Assembly (NCBI GenBank): GCA_021777475.1
Contig: JAJYDM010000017.1
Span: 1 to 32,216, forward strand
From: Actinomycetes bacterium
GTDB lineage: Bacteria > Actinomycetota > Acidimicrobiia > Acidimicrobiales > Acidimicrobiaceae
Direction of reading: 5' to 3'
Length of the DNA: 32,216 nucleotides
Shown here in pieces: positions 3,944-30,291 of this stretch. A program made the position numbers and the translations under genes. Numbering within the stretch: position 1 is the first letter of the stretch; each line of letters opens with the position of its first letter. The notes beneath the pieces were generated by a model, which did not search any database, was not told the origin of the DNA, and saw only the letters and a program-made list of their open reading frames with translations.

Positions 3944-3978
3944 ATCTCACATGTAGGAGTATTTAGGAGCTGAACTCT

Positions 3979-4009
3979 GAGGGAGGCGCAAGCCTCCCTC
4001 TTTTCTTTT
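3979..4009 (+). terminator. Intrinsic terminator after groEL
   Basis: A perfect 9-bp stem GAGGGAGGC / GCCTCCCTC (3979-3987, 3992-4000) with a GCAA tetraloop is followed by TTTTCTTTT. It begins 36 bases after the groEL stop. Confidence 0.95.
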
Positions 4010-5215
4010 AACCAGTTCTAGGATCTCTATCACTCTGATTCAACGAACTGGGTTTTCTTGGCAGAATGGTCCCGGCTAGGCCGCGGTCTATTTTTCTTTG
4101 GTAGTTGATCAACGTTGGTTATCATTTGAGCAAATGCCGCGGAGTGTCAGATTATCCAACATGGTGTTTTTGCCTGCTGTCGGGGTTTGCAGGGATTGGG
4201 AGGCGGTTTTCCTGGCGCCGGACACAGGAACACTCTGGGCGGATTGCGCGAGAAATGGCTAGGACCATCTGAACCACATAAACCCATTGTGTGGGGATTC
4301 ATAGATTGAGATTTCACCGAACGGGACGGTCTTCGATCAGCGGAGGATCGTCAACCTAACCTCAGCGCGGTTTTCATGATCTGTGTTGCACCAATTGGAA
4401 TTTGATGTTTGTCGAACTTTTCTCCGAGCGGCAGGTGGATTAGACGAGAATTGCAACGGGTCTCTTATCAGACGTTCCATATATCATCAAACAATACATG
4501 GACCTCCAGTGCGCAAACTGCGCTATATCGGTTGCATCCTTGCGCCGGGTACTCCTGCTTTCAGATCCTTTTGTCCTCGTTGCGGATACCTGAGTTAATA
4601 GGCATCAGGTCGTTTTCTATCCAGAGATCACCCGACCTGGCGGTTTCCAAGGATCGACACATGAGGTGAAAGTTGTTATTTCGGTCAGCAATATCACAGT
4701 TCTTTATCATTGGGCGTTTCCGGATGCGAAGAAAAGCATGGGTTTGCATCTCTGAAGCGTTGGACATAGGGCTGCCTCTTTCGCTGCCAACAGGACCGTG
4801 ATTGACGATGTTGTGAATTAGTGGACGATTAAGGAGTAACCACGGGCGGGGATGGCAGTTTGAATTTGATTCTTGATAGTGCTTCCGATGAGGACTGGAA
4901 TTCATGCCGAGATGGCGCTCCTAGCTTCAGAAAGCCGCACGCCCTTGGTCAGGGTCAGGGCCAGGTGTCTGCCAGCACTGCCGCCGGGCTTTCTGGTGTT
5001 GGTGATGCTCCAGAACACTAAAGATCCATTGAAGCCGTTACGTGCGTTTTGGGAAATGTTGTTGCGTCGTCATGGCGGTTGATACTGCACCTCGCTATGG
5101 AGTATTGCGTCATGGCCAGTACCGGCCGTCTTGACGGCGTGAAGACTGGAACGAGCACCACTCCGAGGAGATTTTCCGGCAATCTTGGGCGCCACGCAGT
5201 TTGCGAAATTCATAA
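4010..5215. other. Stretch of about 1.2 kb with no recognisable gene
   Basis: Open frames here are short, overlap on both strands, lack convincing ribosome sites and show no motif I recognise. The longest is a 114-residue frame on the minus strand (4561-4905). I see no terminal inverted repeats, tRNA or rRNA pieces. In an otherwise tightly packed chromosome this looks like eroded former coding DNA or a large regulatory spacer; the sequence does not say which. Confidence 0.5.
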
Positions 5216-5690
5216 ATGGATATTGAGGCATGGGCCAGATGCTGTCTTGTTATCGTGCGAACGCGAAACTTAGAGCTGGCCAGTTTTCCTGCCGAGTTGC
5301 TTGAGAGGATCAGTGCGAGGTGAGTCGAACCAGGCGGTAATGCTTGGGGGCAGGTTCGAGTCGAAATTGGCGGATTTGGACAAATGGTAAAGAACCTCTA
5401 CAAGGAAACCAGGCCGTTTGTCCTGGCTAGCGAGCATACATTGTACACCCACACGATTGTCACTTGCGAAGACCTGATGGCCATAGTTGAAGGTGTCGGG
5501 GGTCCCTTAATGGACCGTCGGACCTATGGTGTTCCCGTCTTTCCGAGGAGGTAGAGGAGTGGTATGAGCATGTGGCGATCGATGATAGGACGCGACCGCT
5601 CGTCAATGCCCAACTGCCGCCGAGACCGTTTCTTCTGATTCGGCTGCTACGGTGGGGTTGCAGTATGAAAGTGCTGTCTAGTCAGGTAAA
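5216..5690 (+). pseudogene. Possible decayed gene of unknown function
   Basis: One plus-strand frame from an ATG at 5216 reads protein-like text (LELASFPAELLERISAR), hits a TGA near 5320, and continues in the same frame with VEPGGNAWGQVRVEIGGFG, KETRPFVLASEHTLYTHTIV and EDLMAIVEGVGGPLMD up to a TAG at 5552-5554. The next frame then carries VEEWYEHVAIDDRTRPLV and AQLPPRPFLL. The 5049-5273 frame just upstream ends HGPDAVLLSCERE. The amino-acid mix and the handover between frames suggest one gene broken by at least one stop and one or two frameshifts. I do not recognise the family. An ATG at 5384 would give an intact 56-residue piece, but no ribosome site supports it. Confidence 0.3.
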
Positions 5691-5711
5691 GCCGTCGAGG
5701 AGATAGTTCAG

Positions 5712-6428: not shown

Positions 6429-6466
6429 GTTCGGCCTCTTCGCCAGGTCTATTGAGAAAGATGCAA

Positions 6467-7354
6467 ATGAGCAAGTTGACTACCATATCACGATCTGAGG
6501 TGCTGTCAGATCCGAGAGTTCAGTCGCTGCTGAGCGACACAACATTCTCTGCCCTCGTATCCCGACTGCAGGAGCTGGACCAGGTAGTCGTGGCATTCTC
6601 GGGGGGAGCTGATTCAGCATTTCTCGCATATGTGGCACGGTCGGCGCTTGGCAGGGAGTCGGTGAAGGTTGTTACTGCCGTTTCGCCTTCGCTGGGAAGT
6701 GGGGAACTTGACCATTGCAGGGAGTCGGCTAGAGCATGGGACATCCCGTTTTCCACTGTGGCGACTTCGGAGATGGATAATCCCAACTATGTCGCGAATG
6801 GGCATGATCGCTGCTACTGGTGCAAAGTTGAGCTGATGAATTCCATCAGTCCAATAATTGAAGCAACTAGTGCCAAAGTCATTCTTGGAGTGAATCTCGA
6901 TGATCTGGGTGACTTCAGACCGGGCCAGAAGGCAGCTCTTGAAGCGGGGGCCATATTTCCCCTCGTGGATGCCAGATACACAAAAGAGCTGATAAGGGAG
7001 CATTCGCGTATACTCGGGCTTTCGACGTGGAACCGACCGCAGTCGGCCTGCCTATCGTCTCGGATTCCCTATGGCACGTCTGTATCTGTACCAATTCTTT
7101 CCCAGCTCGACCGGGCCGAGACAGCTCTGAAGAGGCTAGGATTCGCGCAGGTTCGAGTGAGACATTACGACATGCTGGCCAGGATCGAGTTCTTGTTGGA
7201 GGATTTTGAAGCTGTGGTTGAAAAGCGTTCACAGGTCGTGGATGCCGTGAAGAGTGCAGGATATCGCTATGTTACCGTGGATATGGAGGGGTTTAGATCT
7301 GGGAATTTAAACGCCAAGATTGCTCCAGAAGTATCCGTAGAAGACCGTTGCTAA
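6467..7354 (+). CDS. larE: LarE-like PP-loop sulfur transferase, three-cysteine type (295 aa)
   Basis: LarE proteins use ATP to adenylate a pyridinium dinucleotide and insert sulfur during assembly of the nickel-pincer cofactor of lactate racemase-type enzymes. The PP-loop SGGADS lies at residues 45-50. Family motifs follow: a CYWCK pair (C116, C119) and ACLSSRIPYG with C195. The single-cysteine LarE of Lactiplantibacillus gives up sulfur from its own Cys, whereas homologues with three cysteines bind a [4Fe-4S] cluster and can turn over; this one has the three-cysteine pattern. A TTG at 6452 and ATGs at 6461 and 6467 are possible starts; I prefer 6467 because GAGAAAG (6454-6460) sits six bases before it. 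No larB, larC or larA is nearby, so the real substrate is open. Confidence 0.82.
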   Translation: MSKLTTISRSEVLSDPRVQSLLSDTTFSALVSRLQELDQVVVAFSGGADSAFLAYVARSALGRESVKVVTAVSPSLGSGELDHCRESARAWDIPFSTVATSEMDNPNYVANGHDRCYWCKVELMNSISPIIEATSAKVILGVNLDDLGDFRPGQKAALEAGAIFPLVDARYTKELIREHSRILGLSTWNRPQSACLSSRIPYGTSVSVPILSQLDRAETALKRLGFAQVRVRHYDMLARIEFLLEDFEAVVEKRSQVVDAVKSAGYRYVTVDMEGFRSGNLNAKIAPEVSVEDRC

Positions 7355-7400
7355 CTAGTCTCTTATATGTTTCAATGTGCTTGAACCTCGGAGGCAAGAA

Positions 7401-7640
7401 ATGGCAACTCAAAGAGTCAAGCTGATTTATCCAGAGTCTCTGATAACAAGGCCCGTCTTGTCTGAGGCAGCGATTCAGTTCAAGGTAATGTCCAATATAC
7501 GCCGCGCGGCGGTGGACGAGGGCAGCGGTTGGATCATCTGTGAACTCGACGGAGATGCGCCTGCGATCGAGCAGGCTGTGGCTTGGATGGTCTCGCTGGG
7601 GGTTGACGTTGAGGGCCTCAGCGACGTCGTAGAGAGCTAA
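7401..7640 (+). CDS. Free-standing NIL-domain protein (79 aa)
   Basis: The protein is essentially one NIL domain, the small ACT-like fold found at the C-terminus of the methionine ABC transporter ATPase MetN and in some ferredoxins. The match rests on the pattern RVKLIYPESLITRPVLSEAA, followed by an SNIRRAAVDEGSGWII strand-turn and a final GVDVEGL. The ATG at 7401 is set by GGAGG at 7390-7394; an in-frame start further upstream has no such site. It lies 46 bases after the LarE-like gene and is probably co-transcribed. Stand-alone NIL proteins are linked to sulfur amino-acid metabolism in several genomes; a methionine- or SAM-sensing role here is inference. Confidence 0.75.
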   Translation: MATQRVKLIYPESLITRPVLSEAAIQFKVMSNIRRAAVDEGSGWIICELDGDAPAIEQAVAWMVSLGVDVEGLSDVVES

Positions 7641-17162: not shown

Positions 17163-19427
17163 GTGTCGCTAAATCCAGATTTGGCTGCAGAGCAAAGGTA
17201 TCTTGCCAAAGCAAACGATCGTTTGGAAGCAATGCGGGTATCTGCGAGAGAGATGATGGAGTCAGTTCTTGGCACACCTCGTGGAGGAACTCATCAGGCT
17301 AGAGCTGAGCGGGACGTCATTGTTCGCCAAAGTCTTGCCCGACTCGAACAGCTCGAGATTGGTGATCAGGCGCTCAGTTTCGGAGGTATCGACTACGAAA
17401 GCGTTCTCGCACAAGTTTGTACCTATCATATTGGCCGGCTTGCTGTCTCCGATGAAACCATTGAGCCCCTCGTGGTTGACTGGAGGGCTCCGGTGGCGGA
17501 GCCCTTTTATCGAGCGACAGGGAAGGAGCCAATGGGCCTTTCCAGGAGAAGGCACTTTGCCTTGGAGCACAAGGCGCTGGTTTCGATCGAAGATGAACTG
17601 TTCGATCTTGACGGGGCAATTCCTGACCAGCAAGGGTCTGGGGAACTCAGGTTGGCTGGACCCGGCTCGCTATTTGCGGCGGTTACCCGCACTCGAACCG
17701 GCAGGATGGTGGATATCGTCTCCACAATTCAGGCTCAGCAGGATGAAGTGATACGCTCTTCCCTATCCGGGATGCTCGTTGTCCAGGGCGGCCCCGGAAC
17801 AGGCAAGACCGCTGTCGCCCTTCATCGTGCCGCCTACCTCCTCTACACCTATCGGATGCGGCTCGAGCGTCAAGGAGTTCTCGTTGTCGCACCCAGTCGG
17901 ATATTCGCACGATACATAGATCAAGTGCTCCCATCGCTAGGTGAGACCGGTGTGCAGATTACGACGGTTCACGGGCTTGCTGGATTTGGAGAGGCGACTT
18001 TGAGCGATACCGAGGACGAGGCCCGCCTTAAAGGCGACCTGAGGATGACCCGCTTTATAATCAAGGCAATTCGTGATCGAGAGAGACCTCTGAAACATCC
18101 GGTAGAAATTGCTCTCGGAGCCTATGTCGTCACAGTCACCCCTGAGGATACGGCTGAAGCGGTACGGACCACCAAACGTCGCAGTGGTACCCATAACCAA
18201 AGGCACAGGTTCATTGAATCATTACTCGCCGTGAAGATTGCTGACAAGTATCTTGCCAAAAGTGACGTACGTTTGGGTGAAACGGCGTCAGGTGTTGGCG
18301 AATTCGATGAAGAGTTTGTTAATTTTGGCGAGGCGGGAGCGGCCGAGGAGAATCAGGCGAAACGAGTTTTGGCTCTGCGTGTCAAAAAGTCTCCAGAGTT
18401 CCAGAGCGTAATTCAGAGGATCTGGCCAAGGCTGTCTCCTGAGATGCTGTTGGCAGACCTATATTCGCATCTTCCGTTGATTCGTCTGGCCGGCAAGTCG
18501 ATCCTCTCGGAAGCTGAAATGAGACTCCTTTATCGGCCTGGATCGTCAAGCGGAAAGGCCAAGTCGTGGTCAAGGTCAGACCTTGTGTTGCTAAATGAGG
18601 CGAAAGTCCATTTGGGCAGCTATCAGAAAAGATCGGACGAAGTCGATGAAGAACGGGCCTACGGACACCTCATCGTAGATGAGGCGCAGGACCTAACTCC
18701 ACTTGCTGCCAGGATGGTCGGTAGGAATTCGCTTTCTGGATCAATGACCCTCGTTGGCGATGTGGCCCAGGCCACCTCTCCTTTTGGTCAGCGCACCTGG
18801 CAGGAGATCGTCGCGCCGATGCAAAAAGCGGATTCGTTCAAACTGGTCGAGCTGAAGGTTAATTACAGGACCCCCCAGGAGGTGATGGATGTTGCCGGTG
18901 GCCTCTTGGAGGAATTCGCTCCGGAACTTAAACCGGCGATTTCTATTCGCCACAGTGGAGAGCCGGTGGTCATGACTTCGGTCGGGACCGAAAAGTTCTT
19001 TGGTCTTTTGGCAGAGGTGGTACGCAATGAGGTTGGCCTGGTGGAGCCTGGCACGGTTGCGTTGATCGTTCCTGCTGAGGAAAAGGCTGTTTACCTGGAT
19101 GAACTTGCTCGCGCGGGGTTGAAGGTGTCGGCATTTCCGCAGGAGCCTCTGTCGGTACTTTCAATTCGTGAGGCAAAAGGTCTGGAGTTTGATTCGGTAG
19201 TTATTTCGGGGGCAAATCGGCTGCTACCGGCGGGTGCCTTGAATCTCCAGGCTCTGTTCGTGGCCATGACTCGAACAACCAAGCGATTAGTTTTTGTGCA
19301 CAATAGCGATGTACCGGATGTTATTGTTGATTTGATATCACAGCAAAAATCAGGTAATGGGAAAGAAATGCCGAATAATTTGTTATTGGGCGAATCGGGG
19401 ATGAAGGGTAATTTGACGGTTTTATGA
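17163..19427 (+). CDS. helD: HelD-like UvrD/Rep-family ATPase that acts on RNA polymerase (754 aa)
   Basis: HelD proteins use ATP to remove stalled RNA polymerase from DNA; some actinobacterial relatives (HelR) protect the enzyme from rifamycins. The N-terminal coiled arm (residues 1-65) precedes a domain with VVDWRAPVAEPFYRATG. Walker A is GGPGTGKTA (209-217). Walker B is VDEAQD (505-510), followed by VGDVAQATSPFG, and VNYRTPQEV (567-574) is motif IV-like. An acidic stretch at about 379-396 lies in the HelD-specific insertion, where such loops can enter the polymerase channel. The GTG at 17163 follows GAAGAAAAGG. Its stop overlaps the ctaE start (ATGA), an unexpected coupling to a respiratory gene. 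Resistance to rifampicin is not predictable from this alone. Confidence 0.9.
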   Translation: MSLNPDLAAEQRYLAKANDRLEAMRVSAREMMESVLGTPRGGTHQARAERDVIVRQSLARLEQLEIGDQALSFGGIDYESVLAQVCTYHIGRLAVSDETIEPLVVDWRAPVAEPFYRATGKEPMGLSRRRHFALEHKALVSIEDELFDLDGAIPDQQGSGELRLAGPGSLFAAVTRTRTGRMVDIVSTIQAQQDEVIRSSLSGMLVVQGGPGTGKTAVALHRAAYLLYTYRMRLERQGVLVVAPSRIFARYIDQVLPSLGETGVQITTVHGLAGFGEATLSDTEDEARLKGDLRMTRFIIKAIRDRERPLKHPVEIALGAYVVTVTPEDTAEAVRTTKRRSGTHNQRHRFIESLLAVKIADKYLAKSDVRLGETASGVGEFDEEFVNFGEAGAAEENQAKRVLALRVKKSPEFQSVIQRIWPRLSPEMLLADLYSHLPLIRLAGKSILSEAEMRLLYRPGSSSGKAKSWSRSDLVLLNEAKVHLGSYQKRSDEVDEERAYGHLIVDEAQDLTPLAARMVGRNSLSGSMTLVGDVAQATSPFGQRTWQEIVAPMQKADSFKLVELKVNYRTPQEVMDVAGGLLEEFAPELKPAISIRHSGEPVVMTSVGTEKFFGLLAEVVRNEVGLVEPGTVALIVPAEEKAVYLDELARAGLKVSAFPQEPLSVLSIREAKGLEFDSVVISGANRLLPAGALNLQALFVAMTRTTKRLVFVHNSDVPDVIVDLISQQKSGNGKEMPNNLLLGESGMKGNLTVL

Positions 19428-26556: not shown

Positions 26557-27216
26557 ATGAGCAGTATCGCTAATTACGTCTTGACCCTTCATGGCTGGGT
26601 TGTGCTGCTGTTGGTGTTTCTTTTGCCTGCCGCCGAATCGTCCATCTTCCTGGGTTTTGTGTTTCCGGGAGAGACTGCGGTGATCGTGGCCGGTGTATTA
26701 GCTTCTGAGCACCGGGAATCGTTGGTCATGATCATGGCGGCAGCTTCTTTAGGCGCGATTCTCGGTGACAGCGCGGGCTATTTTATCGGCAAGAAGTGGG
26801 GCCGCTCGCTGGTCAACAACCAGCTGTCCCGGTTTGTGAAGCCAGCCCATGTGGCCAGAGCCGAAGAGTTCATGGTGAGAAGGGGAGGACCCGGCGTCTT
26901 TATTGGACGTTTTACCACCGTTCTAAGGGTGCTGGTGCCAGGTATGGCCGGTGTGGCCAAAATGAGGTACAGGACTTTCGCAATCTATAACATTTCCGGT
27001 GGCATCGCCTGGGCGGTTTCAATGTCGTTTTTAGGGTTTGTTGCCGGCCAAAGTTACAAGCAGGTTGAAAAGATTGCAGGTGATGTCTCCTACGTGATTT
27101 TGGGAGTCGTCGTCCTTGCTTTGGCCGTGTTCCTTTTTTATCGCAAGCGAAAAGAGATGGTCGTCGACAAGAGCTATGAGACAAGGATAAGGAGGAGCCA
27201 GAGATCAGGGGAATGA
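26557..27216 (+). CDS. DedA-family membrane protein (219 aa)
   Basis: DedA proteins are inner-membrane proteins implicated in recycling polyprenyl-phosphate or lipid carriers and in membrane homeostasis. The FVFPGETAVIVAG motif, GDSAGYFIGKKWG, GRFTTVLRVLVPGMAG and NISGGIAWA are the family signatures, with a final membrane helix and a basic tail. It has the same orientation as the respiratory genes but no overlap with them. Its last 12 bases overlap the convergent glycosyltransferase. Confidence 0.92.
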   Translation: MSSIANYVLTLHGWVVLLLVFLLPAAESSIFLGFVFPGETAVIVAGVLASEHRESLVMIMAAASLGAILGDSAGYFIGKKWGRSLVNNQLSRFVKPAHVARAEEFMVRRGGPGVFIGRFTTVLRVLVPGMAGVAKMRYRTFAIYNISGGIAWAVSMSFLGFVAGQSYKQVEKIAGDVSYVILGVVVLALAVFLFYRKRKEMVVDKSYETRIRRSQRSGE

Positions 27217-28152
27217 CGTGGTCTGGTCGCCGCTCCCTCGGCCGAAGAACCTTTGCCCAATTCGCCTACGGACTCTGGATGCTAGGAATGGGATAAGGTA
27301 GTCCCAAGATGCCGACGGAATCTGCGGGCCAACACCAGCCCTGACGGCGGAGATGATGCTATTTGTTGCGTTCCGACCGTCCTTAGCCAAAATGAAACCG
27401 ACACAGAAGCGGAGATAATGCCAGGCCCAGATCTTTTTCAACAGGCGTGGATTGATCGTCTCGTCAGCCTCCTCACGGAGCATCATCTTCTGCATGGCCA
27501 GCATCAGACGCATGAGGTCTTTGGAGTAGCCGCCGTTGGTATCTCTGTAAAAGACCAGTTGCTCTTGAACCAGTACGATCTCGCCGAGTCTTGAGAGCCT
27601 CAGCCACATGTCCCAGTCTTCGGCTCCGTCTAATTCGCTTCGAAATCCATGGAGTTGCTCCAACTGAGCCCTTCTGGCCATGACTGTGGAGGTTTGAAAC
27701 CGATTCAAGATGAGAATGTCCGAGGTCCACAGTTTTTTGACTTGGTTGACGGGCGGCCTCGCCGTTTCCAAACTCAGCAGGGTTTTGGCCGAGCCTGACC
27801 AGTTGGAGGCGACCAGAACAGCCTTGGGGTTCTGCACGATTTCACGGAGTTGGATGTCGCTCTTGTCCTTGGCCCAAATATCGTCGGCGTCCAGAAAGGC
27901 GATCCATTCGAATCTGGCATTTTTGATTCCCAGATTCCTCGCTGATGAAGGACCACCGTTGTGTTTCTTGATCAGCCTGACTCCAGGGAAGTTTGATGTG
28001 ACTATGGCGCATGTATTGTCACTCGATTCGTCATCGATGACGATTATCTCGTTGGGTTGGACGGTCTGAGAGTAAACGGATTCCAGGGCGGCCTTTATGG
28101 TCTCCTGGGAGTTGTAGGTGGGAATTACGACGCTCACTGTGGGTCTGGTCAT
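27205..28152 (-). CDS. Family-2 glycosyltransferase (315 aa)
   Basis: The GT-A fold begins VSVVIPTYNSQETIKAAL and continues IIVIDDESSDNT, GGPSSARNLGI and FLDADDIWA, where the DAD supplies the metal-binding acidic residues. EDWDMWLRL is the likely catalytic-base segment. A basic C-terminal tail with no clear membrane helix suggests a peripheral enzyme. The sugar and acceptor are not predictable. It stands apart from other glycan genes; the only other GT2 here is the relic at 1-366. Confidence 0.9.
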   Translation of the reverse strand: MTRPTVSVVIPTYNSQETIKAALESVYSQTVQPNEIIVIDDESSDNTCAIVTSNFPGVRLIKKHNGGPSSARNLGIKNARFEWIAFLDADDIWAKDKSDIQLREIVQNPKAVLVASNWSGSAKTLLSLETARPPVNQVKKLWTSDILILNRFQTSTVMARRAQLEQLHGFRSELDGAEDWDMWLRLSRLGEIVLVQEQLVFYRDTNGGYSKDLMRLMLAMQKMMLREEADETINPRLLKKIWAWHYLRFCVGFILAKDGRNATNSIISAVRAGVGPQIPSASWDYLIPFLASRVRRRIGQRFFGRGSGDQTTSFP

Positions 28153-28418: not shown

Positions 28419-29942
28419 CTATCTTGAAGCATAGGCTGATGCTTGGGTTCCTGCCAAGTCGAGCATCTCCACCGCTTTTTTGGCGGCTTCCACATCGTCA
28501 AGAAGTATTTTTCGGTTTCCGATGCGCAGGCTCTTCTCATGACCTCGTCCGACAATCAGGACAGTGTCATCTGGACCTGCTGAGCCGATGGCAAGTTGGA
28601 TTGCTTTTTCCCTGTCTAGCACGATGGATATCCGGCCTTGTGGTACGTCTATGGTTCCTGCAATGAGCTGTTCAATGATTGCGACGGGGTCTTCATCGCC
28701 AGGAGAATCAACCGTGAGTATCACGTGGTTTGCCTTGGCGAGGGCTCTTCCAAGTTCAGGCCTCTTGAGCCTGTCCCGGCCTCCTCTGGCCCCAGCGACT
28801 ATATAGACCTCGGAATTGTCGGCACGGAGGGATCTCGCGGTTTCAATTAGGGACACTATGGCTCCTGGAGTATGGGCATAATCAATGATGATTTCCATTG
28901 ATTGACCAAGCTCAACTCTCTGGAAGCGGCCTGAAACTTTCTGGCAACTCTTGATTCCTGCAAGGGCGGCCTCGGTATCGAGTCCCAACAGATGGAGAGC
29001 CAGAAAGGCAGCTGCGGCATTTTGAGCGTTGCAGGCGCCAACGATCGGGGAGAATATTTCTGTGTGGACATCCGGGCCATTCAAGGTGAAGGAAGTGCCG
29101 TCGTGCGTGATTCTTATGTCCTCGATATGGTAGTCGGCCAAGGGAGTGGATCCGAATGTAACAACAGGTGTTTGGACCTGGTGACTGAGCCGCAGCCCCC
29201 ATTCGTCATCGACGCAAACCAACGCCCTCTTGCACCGGGACGGTTCGAACAGCTGCGCTTTGGTGGCGTAATACTGTTCAATGGTTCCGTGGTAGTCCAA
29301 GTGCTCTGCCGTCAGGTTGGTGAATATTCCCAGTTCGAACAGGGTGCCGTCTATTCTGTGCTGGTCGATGCCGTGGGAAGACACCTCCATTACCGCCACT
29401 TCTACGTCATGTCTTAGCATCTCTGCAAGGGATCCTTGAAGTGATGGAGCTTCCGGGGTAGTGAAGAGGGCGGGAACCGACTGACCTGCAATCTTGGTTT
29501 CTATCGTTCCAATCAGGCCGGACCGAATTCCGGCGTGCTCCAGAGCGTTTTCTATCATGTAGGAGGTTGTCGTTTTGCCGTTGGTTCCAGTGATTCCGAT
29601 GACGTTGAGCTTCGTTGAGGGGATTCCGTACACCAGTGAAGAAACCTTGCCCAATACGCGGCGAACTGAAGGAACGATGAGTTGGGGCAGATCGATCGGT
29701 AATTTGCGGGATGTCAAAAGCGAACTGGCGCCATTGATGTACGCCTCATGTGCGAAGTCGTGGCCATCAAGGTGGGTGCCCTTCATCGCGGCGAATATGT
29801 CTCCTGGTTTGACGAGGCGTGAGTCGCTCGCTACGCCTGAGACATCAAGGTCGGCCCCAACAAGGCGTGCTTCCGGGATTTGAGTTGCGAGGTGTGAGAG
29901 AGAATAACTCAAATGATCAACCGTTCTTGTCCTCGATTTCAA
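28419..29942 (-). CDS. murE: MurE-like UDP-MurNAc-dipeptide ligase with atypical specificity motif (507 aa)
   Basis: MurE adds the third amino acid (usually meso-diaminopimelate or lysine) to the peptidoglycan precursor with ATP. The family blocks are present: SDSRLVKPGDIF (39-50), P-loop GTNGKTT (119-125), TTPEAPSLQ (161-169), MEVSSHG, NLTAEHLDYHGT with the carbamylated lysine K228 in YATKAQLF, DYAHTPG, and GRGHE near the end. The specificity motif, DNPR in mDAP enzymes and DDPN-like in Lys enzymes, reads DSPG at 412-415. The TTG start at 29942 has no clear ribosome site, so the N-terminus is unsure. It is not in a cell-wall gene cluster here. It may be the only MurE with altered specificity or a paralogue with another substrate. 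Confidence 0.87.
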   Translation of the reverse strand: MKSRTRTVDHLSYSLSHLATQIPEARLVGADLDVSGVASDSRLVKPGDIFAAMKGTHLDGHDFAHEAYINGASSLLTSRKLPIDLPQLIVPSVRRVLGKVSSLVYGIPSTKLNVIGITGTNGKTTTSYMIENALEHAGIRSGLIGTIETKIAGQSVPALFTTPEAPSLQGSLAEMLRHDVEVAVMEVSSHGIDQHRIDGTLFELGIFTNLTAEHLDYHGTIEQYYATKAQLFEPSRCKRALVCVDDEWGLRLSHQVQTPVVTFGSTPLADYHIEDIRITHDGTSFTLNGPDVHTEIFSPIVGACNAQNAAAAFLALHLLGLDTEAALAGIKSCQKVSGRFQRVELGQSMEIIIDYAHTPGAIVSLIETARSLRADNSEVYIVAGARGGRDRLKRPELGRALAKANHVILTVDSPGDEDPVAIIEQLIAGTIDVPQGRISIVLDREKAIQLAIGSAGPDDTVLIVGRGHEKSLRIGNRKILLDDVEAAKKAVEMLDLAGTQASAYASR

Positions 29943-30219
29943 ATTGCTGTCGTTATATATTTACCTGCTTCGCATAAGACAAGGATTAGGAAGAAAAGCC
30001 TCATATATTCAATTCCAAGCTATCAAAGTCTTTCACATTAGTGGTGGATTGTCATGACGGCCCTGGAAATGAGAGGCACTGCCTGGGTGTATTTCCGATG
30101 AGGAGAGGAGTGGCTTGTCGAAGGCGCCGGCTATCGGTTCAGAACTCTTCCAGCTGTCAATCTGTGTCATTTCCTGCGGAAAAGTCGGGTGTCCATCTAG
30201 GCTGGCTAGTTAAGATTTG

Positions 30220-30291
30220 CGCCCTCGGCAGGATTCGAACCTGCGCACCCGGCTCCGGAGGCCGATGCTCTATCCCCTGAGCTACGAGGGC
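30220..30291 (-). tRNA. tRNA-Arg (anticodon CCG)
   Basis: The minus strand folds into a full cloverleaf. It has a 7-bp acceptor stem (GCCCTCG / CGAGGGC), D stem GCTC/GAGC, an anticodon loop CTCCGGA reading CCG, a T arm with TTCGAAT, and discriminator G at 30220. The 3' CCA is not encoded (the next bases are CAA). Arginine CGG codons are decoded. Confidence 0.95.

Follow-up and report, generated by a model that had tools for sequence, protein, structure and literature searches.

The window analysed here is a 32,216-nucleotide stretch of DNA from an actinomycete of the family Acidimicrobiaceae (assembly GCA_021777475.1, contig JAJYDM010000017.1, positions 1 to 32,216). On its minus strand it carries a gene, murE2 (28419 to 29942), whose product is a paralog of MurE. 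MurE fixes the third residue of the stem peptide, and an organism usually has one such enzyme and one such residue. The reading that we tentatively favour, drawn from sequence comparison, is that MurE2 is a second UDP-MurNAc-tripeptide ligase with changed specificity for the third residue, feeding a side branch linked to a family 2 glycosyltransferase (GT2). The protein, a predicted ATP-dependent ligase of MurE fold, would act apart from the essential meso-diaminopimelate (mDAP) ligase of the division and cell wall (dcw) gene cluster and would add something other than ordinary mDAP as third residue. Its product would stay out of the bulk wall and enter a minor branch, where GT2 would add a sugar to the muropeptide or to a lipid-linked form of it, the outcome being a modified wall precursor or an envelope glycopeptide.

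MurE2 comprises 507 amino acids, starts with TTG and retains the catalytic residues, as judged from hidden Markov model scores, an AlphaFold model and comparison of that model with VIA-align. It is a complete Mur ligase with all three Pfam domains and scores 448.3 bits with TIGR01085 (MurE, UDP-MurNAc-tripeptide synthetase), above the curated cut-off of 257.3. Scores stay below the cut-offs for cyanophycin synthetase (102 of 850), FolC (59.1 of 162.65) and the pseudomurein ligases (pMurC, 102.8 of 560; the remaining pMur models score lower). The L-Lys-specific MurE profile NF010628, which served for the comparison with Lys-type enzymes and which leaves other Lys-type groups such as that of Staphylococcus aureus outside the test, gives 267.8 bits against a cut-off of 536. 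The AlphaFold model (mean pLDDT 88.9; 27 sequences) matches MurE structures along almost its entire length, with Z scores of 44.0 for Mycobacterium tuberculosis (2xja), 43.6 for S. aureus (4c12) and 42.5 for Escherichia coli (1e8c). As the model ties on 2xja and 4c12, the fold does not decide specificity.

The preliminary description of this DNA had reported DSPG in place of the DNPR specificity motif, with GxGHE and the MurE fold retained, and these observations hold. In the alignment, DSPG occupies residues 412-415 of MurE2 (28698 to 28709, minus strand; E. coli DNPR 414-417) within DSPGDEDP (412-419), where mDAP ligases have DNPR, and GRGHE occupies residues 465-469 (28536 to 28550, minus), with R466 for Lys and E469 kept. 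The ATP-binding loop TGTNGKTT lies at residues 118-125 (29568 to 29591, minus). That description had overlooked both a companion arginine, R386 (E. coli position 387) in the loop GARG (residues 384-387; 28782 to 28793, minus), and the adjoining GT2 gene.

The two arginine positions were compared in an alignment of 160 rows (47 MurE2, 113 canonical MurE), from which rows shorter than 380 amino acids or contained in others had been removed; the canonical rows had been selected for their similarity to MurE2, and DNPA Lys-type enzymes are absent from those that were read. Residue numbers from here on follow the UniProt numbering of E. coli. All 47 MurE2 proteins have Arg at position 387, and their position 417 is Gly (46) or Asp (one). 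Conversely, all 113 canonical enzymes have Arg at 417, and Gly (112) or Ala (one) at 387, so that the reciprocal pattern is without exception in the 160 rows. Arg replaces Lys at position 466 in every MurE2 and is found there in 2 of the 113 canonical proteins. Position 210 is Glu throughout MurE2; in canonical MurE it is Asp in 103 cases and Glu in ten. Asn415 is retained in 25 MurE2 proteins and replaced by Ser in 22. Within the window's family, D[NS]PG is common to all 31 aligned MurE2 sequences, which excludes sequencing error or chance as the source of DSPG; the 21 canonical copies aligned alongside all have DNPR. Canonical motifs deviate in the third place in G022 and G030 (DNSR) and in G665 (DNAR), Arg always being kept; the canonical motif was left unread in two genomes outside the family (G507 and G521).

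The remainder of the active site is conserved. T115, G116, T117, G119, K120, T121, E183, H211, K225, R342, D357 and H360, which we take to be the ATP loop, the carbamylated lysine and other catalytic residues, are identical in all 47 MurE2 proteins. The positions presumed from UniProt P22188 to contact UDP-MurNAc-dipeptide are likewise largely retained: R193 and T159 in 47 of 47, S29 in 46 (one gap), T158 and S185 in 45, and Q191 in 44, the other three having Met or Arg. D414 and E469 are present in all 47, none of which has Arg at 417, and Arg390 is kept. According to a study of S. aureus MurE (PMC3829189, whose residue numbers are one lower), the second mDAP carboxylate has Asn and Arg of DNPR as its ligands, and the first Asp together with Glu of GHE binds the side-chain amine. 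MurE2 would thus keep the amine clamp, and its carboxylate clamp would be either lost or shifted to Arg387. The side chain of Arg387 probably points into the pocket, judging from its place in the loop three residues before Arg390.

The genome that contains the window (2.28 Mb in 139 contigs, 96% complete) encodes another MurE on contig C65 (L005), with 42% identity to MurE2 and the motifs DNPRSEDP and AGKGHE. Read by eye, it lies in a standard dcw run whose products we take to be RsmH, FtsL, FtsI, MurE, MraY, MurD, FtsW, MurG, MurC, MurB and FtsQ. MurE2, situated between tRNA-Arg/argS and GT2-dedA, is outside this cluster, and the copy on C65 rules it out as sole MurE of the genome. A second match at the MurE level was seen in 14 of the 15 MurE2 genomes outside the family as well. 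The preliminary description had proposed a search for a second murE in the dcw cluster and had left two alternatives, a paralog or an unusual third residue of the stem peptide. The canonical copy bears out the former. The latter, taken to mean that MurE2 makes the third residue of this organism's entire wall, has the motif change itself in its favour, and against it stand the DNPR enzyme of the dcw cluster and the case of Acidimicrobium ferrooxidans (G014). This relative, a different organism from that of the window, carries a DNPG copy of the same kind beside a DNPR copy, and its murein contains meso-DAP according to its description (PMC3035218), so that its bulk third residue is ordinary. 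An unusual residue throughout the bulk wall is therefore not supported, and we give that alternative hardly any credence.

In the dcw cluster on C65, no murF separates murE from mraY, which raised the suspicion that MurE2 substitutes for MurF. This was rejected: contig C87 has a MurF-like frame (200.8 bits, under the 288.6 that TIGR01143 requires), and the MurE profile gives MurE2 a much higher score than the MurF profile does (448.3 versus 140.6 bits).

The GT2 gene (27205 to 28152, minus strand) encodes 315 amino acids with DADD and EDW motifs and a conserved AWHxxR...PFL tail, as identified with PF00535 (107.2 bits, cut-off 23.3) and by alignment; none of the 23 NCBIfam models among the matches listed reaches its cut-off. 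GT2 adjoins MurE2 in all 21 family loci that were read with flanks (21 of 32). Of the 15 genomes with MurE2 in other families, 11 have GT2 as an adjoining gene of its own and two (G665 and G255) have it fused to MurE2; in G521, MurE2 ends its contig and GT2, split into two matches, lies near the start of another. GT2 orthologs were found in 21 of 298 genomes of the order (1e-55 or better; weakest 3.5e-90), and all 21 adjoin MurE2 on the same contig. Stop and start codons of the two genes overlap in G306 and G429. In G665, a single frame of 882 codons encodes MurE2 (DSPGAEDP, GRGHE) and a complete GT2 with DADD and EDW. The 266 nucleotides between murE2 and the GT2 gene in the window contain no strong conserved block as judged by eye in five genomes of the genus. 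Other common neighbours of MurE2 inside the family, argS-lysA-hom-thrC and cox genes, were not found by BLAST in five non-family loci (L174-L177 and L180), whereas GT2 adjoins or is fused to MurE2 in all five. A general neighbour effect was therefore rejected as a full account of the GT2 link.

Several observations weigh against a changed specificity coupled to GT2. In one genome outside the family, G439, MurE2 is present and GT2 was not found. Nor is the pair always an operon: in 32 loci with separate genes, GT2 lies downstream on the same strand in 24, and is divergent in seven and convergent in one (8 of 32). The GT2 part of the G255 fusion is short and has lost DxD, which argues against a strict need for GT2 activity; together with G439 it indicates that this activity is not always needed. 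An additional Arg would raise the positive charge of the pocket and speaks against plain lysine as substrate. The best NCBIfam match of MurE2 is the mDAP-ligase equivalog NF001126 (450.5 bits, cut-off 373). Finally, the motif alone does not set specificity in S. aureus MurE, where the exchange A409R brought no mDAP activity (PMC3829189).

The match to NF001126 also favours the rival that we hold closest, although we regard it as unlikely: MurE2 could be an isozyme, a second diaminopimelate ligase in which Arg387 replaces Arg417 on the distal carboxylate. It might then take another DAP isomer, or perhaps serve under other conditions such as low pH. The exchange of Arg between two pocket loops in all 160 rows would be accounted for, as would retention of Glu469, Asp414 and Arg390. 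Moreover, Actinomarinicola tropica, a member of the same class, is stated to be an exception to meso-DAP in its family and apparently tabled with DD-DAP (PMC12263773). An isozyme leaves unexplained, however, both the tie to GT2 and the replacement of Asn415, the other carboxylate ligand, by Ser in 22 of 47 MurE2 proteins.

The constancy of the GT2 partner and the fusion could also mean that MurE2 acts on another acceptor and makes the compound that GT2 uses as sugar donor or acceptor, for instance for an amino-acid-bearing envelope polymer. The substitutions of Gln191 by Met or Arg in three proteins and the invariant Glu at position 210 would fit such a role. Against it, each of the presumed dipeptide contacts S29, T158, T159, S185 and R193 is retained in at least 45 of the 47 proteins, and the protein has the MurE fold and aligns with MurE over its full length; this alternative ranks next and seems doubtful to us.

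In the window's family, 36 genomes were searched (own genome included) and 32 have MurE2; the family is that of A. ferrooxidans, Acidimicrobiaceae according to PMC3035218. The 24 genomes that the same search covered in other families of the order gave no match at the MurE2 level. Genome searches used fixed cut-offs, so that diverged members can be missed. An order-wide profile search (397 genomes, 1e-150) returned 34 matches, two of which (G500 and G633) are DNPR enzymes; the other 32 are MurE2, 17 in the family and 15 in seven other families (f9, f23, f27, f30, f36, f40 and f77). Among 396 genomes of the phylum, the 31 matches listed outside the order reach at most 598 bits, compared to at least 613 for any MurE2 of the order, and all seven of these that were read have DNPR. 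The best 80 public loci from a scan of genome contigs comprise 77 with DNPR, two with DNSR and one MurE2 (L086), which belongs to an uncultured Actinomycetes metagenome-assembled genome (MAG) and is on the same contig as in G386; eight further MurE2 loci brought this motif tally to 88. Family genomes without MurE2 are G001, G007, G030 and G022. GT2 lies at a contig end in the first three (379 nucleotides from the end in G001, within the first one or two bases in G007 and G030), and the missing MurE2 is consistent with assembly gaps; in G022 (80% complete) neither MurE2 nor GT2 was seen.

A quick tree of 95 of the 160 rows (33 of 47 MurE2, 28 of 79 canonical enzymes from named genomes, and all 34 other canonical ones) placed the MurE2 rows on one side of a branch with SH-aLRT support of 99. 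Closest to them are seven canonical MurEs (support 97), one from a Nitriliruptoraceae MAG and six from outside the class; canonical MurEs of the same order are not their nearest neighbours. This fits an old duplication or a transfer, between which the tree does not choose. Pairwise comparison of 14 family genomes gave a higher identity for MurE2 than for canonical MurE in 90 of 91 pairs (means 54.4 versus 43.8%), which suggests firm selection on MurE2. A structural or regulatory role in place of ligase activity, as in the MurE-like PAP11 of plastid RNA polymerase, would be very improbable given this stronger conservation and the identity of the checked catalytic positions in all 47 proteins, even though PAP11 chains match the model (Z 36.9, 8r6s_Q).

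Compared to mDAP-adding MurE (TIGR01085, NF001126; E. coli P22188; M. tuberculosis 2wtz/2xja), MurE2 shares the fold, length, ATP site, catalytic residues, most UDP-MurNAc-dipeptide residues and GxGHE with Glu469, but has D[NS]PG for DNPR as well as Arg387 and Arg466, and is a second copy outside dcw with a GT2 partner. The L-Lys enzyme of S. aureus (4c12, DNPA) resembles MurE2 in having a small residue for the motif Arg and in keeping the amine-holding Asp and Glu; it differs in overall sequence (29% identity) and lacks the extra Arg of the MurE2 pocket loops. Thermotoga maritima MurE (4bub, LD-Lys) takes another third residue and has GRGHE as in MurE2, but its TDDPRGED and GAGGNSDRGKR correspond to the canonical Arg417 and Gly387. 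Envelope-polymer GT2s (TuaG, PglI-like) have a GT2 domain with DxD and EDW like the MurE2 partner, which is distinguished by its own conserved tail and its constant MurE2 neighbour.

Convergent with GT2 lies a gene for a DedA/VTT membrane protein (26557 to 27216, plus strand), found beside the pair in 19 of 21 family loci and not found beside it in five non-family loci tested; its tie to the MurE2-GT2 system is uncertain. A tRNA-Arg (CCG; 30219 to 30291, minus strand) is located between murE2 and the divergent argS, and in the relative G005 thrC adjoins argS-lysA-hom. Neighbours outside the family vary (DUF2142, NAGPA, PQQ-repeat, peptidases and others). Directly 5' of MurE2 are a phosphodiester-glycosidase (NAGPA) protein in G439 (L210, 2342 to 3544) and a DUF2142 membrane protein in G306 (L176, 6216 to 7775), the latter overlapping MurE2 by a few bases. 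Elsewhere in the window (region 544 to 2162), a SAM riboswitch (RF00162, 66.1 bits) is directly 5' of a gene for a threonine-synthase-like pyridoxal-phosphate (PLP) enzyme (640 to 1881), whose stop codon overlaps a ThiS-family open reading frame (ORF; 1881 to 2162); LarE (6452 to 7354) and a NIL-domain ORF (7377 to 7640) are also present. These ORFs and the PLP enzyme may form a route to homocysteine that employs a sulfur carrier and is controlled by SAM. Some 1.8 kb between groEL and hemQ (3944 to 5711) contain no ORF longer than 114 amino acids, and neither a Pfam match for the two longest ORFs nor an Rfam match was found there. A HelR/HelD-like RNA-polymerase recycling ATPase of 754 amino acids (17163 to 19427) falls well short of the curated cut-off for each of the three models that match it best.

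A MurE paralog as such is a known kind of protein; among the open-licence PubMed Central articles listed by the searches, judged by their titles, none described this exchange in the pocket, the link to GT2, a bacterial MurE paralog of this sort or a MurE-GT2 pair. The arginine moved between two pocket loops represents a natural experiment on MurE specificity, bearing on the question left open by the single motif exchange in the S. aureus enzyme (PMC3829189). Taken together, the data suggest that cell-wall chemistry has a side branch, so far undescribed, in Acidimicrobiaceae and in some families related to it. If this is true, one cell would make two kinds of tripeptide precursor, the second with a use of its own.
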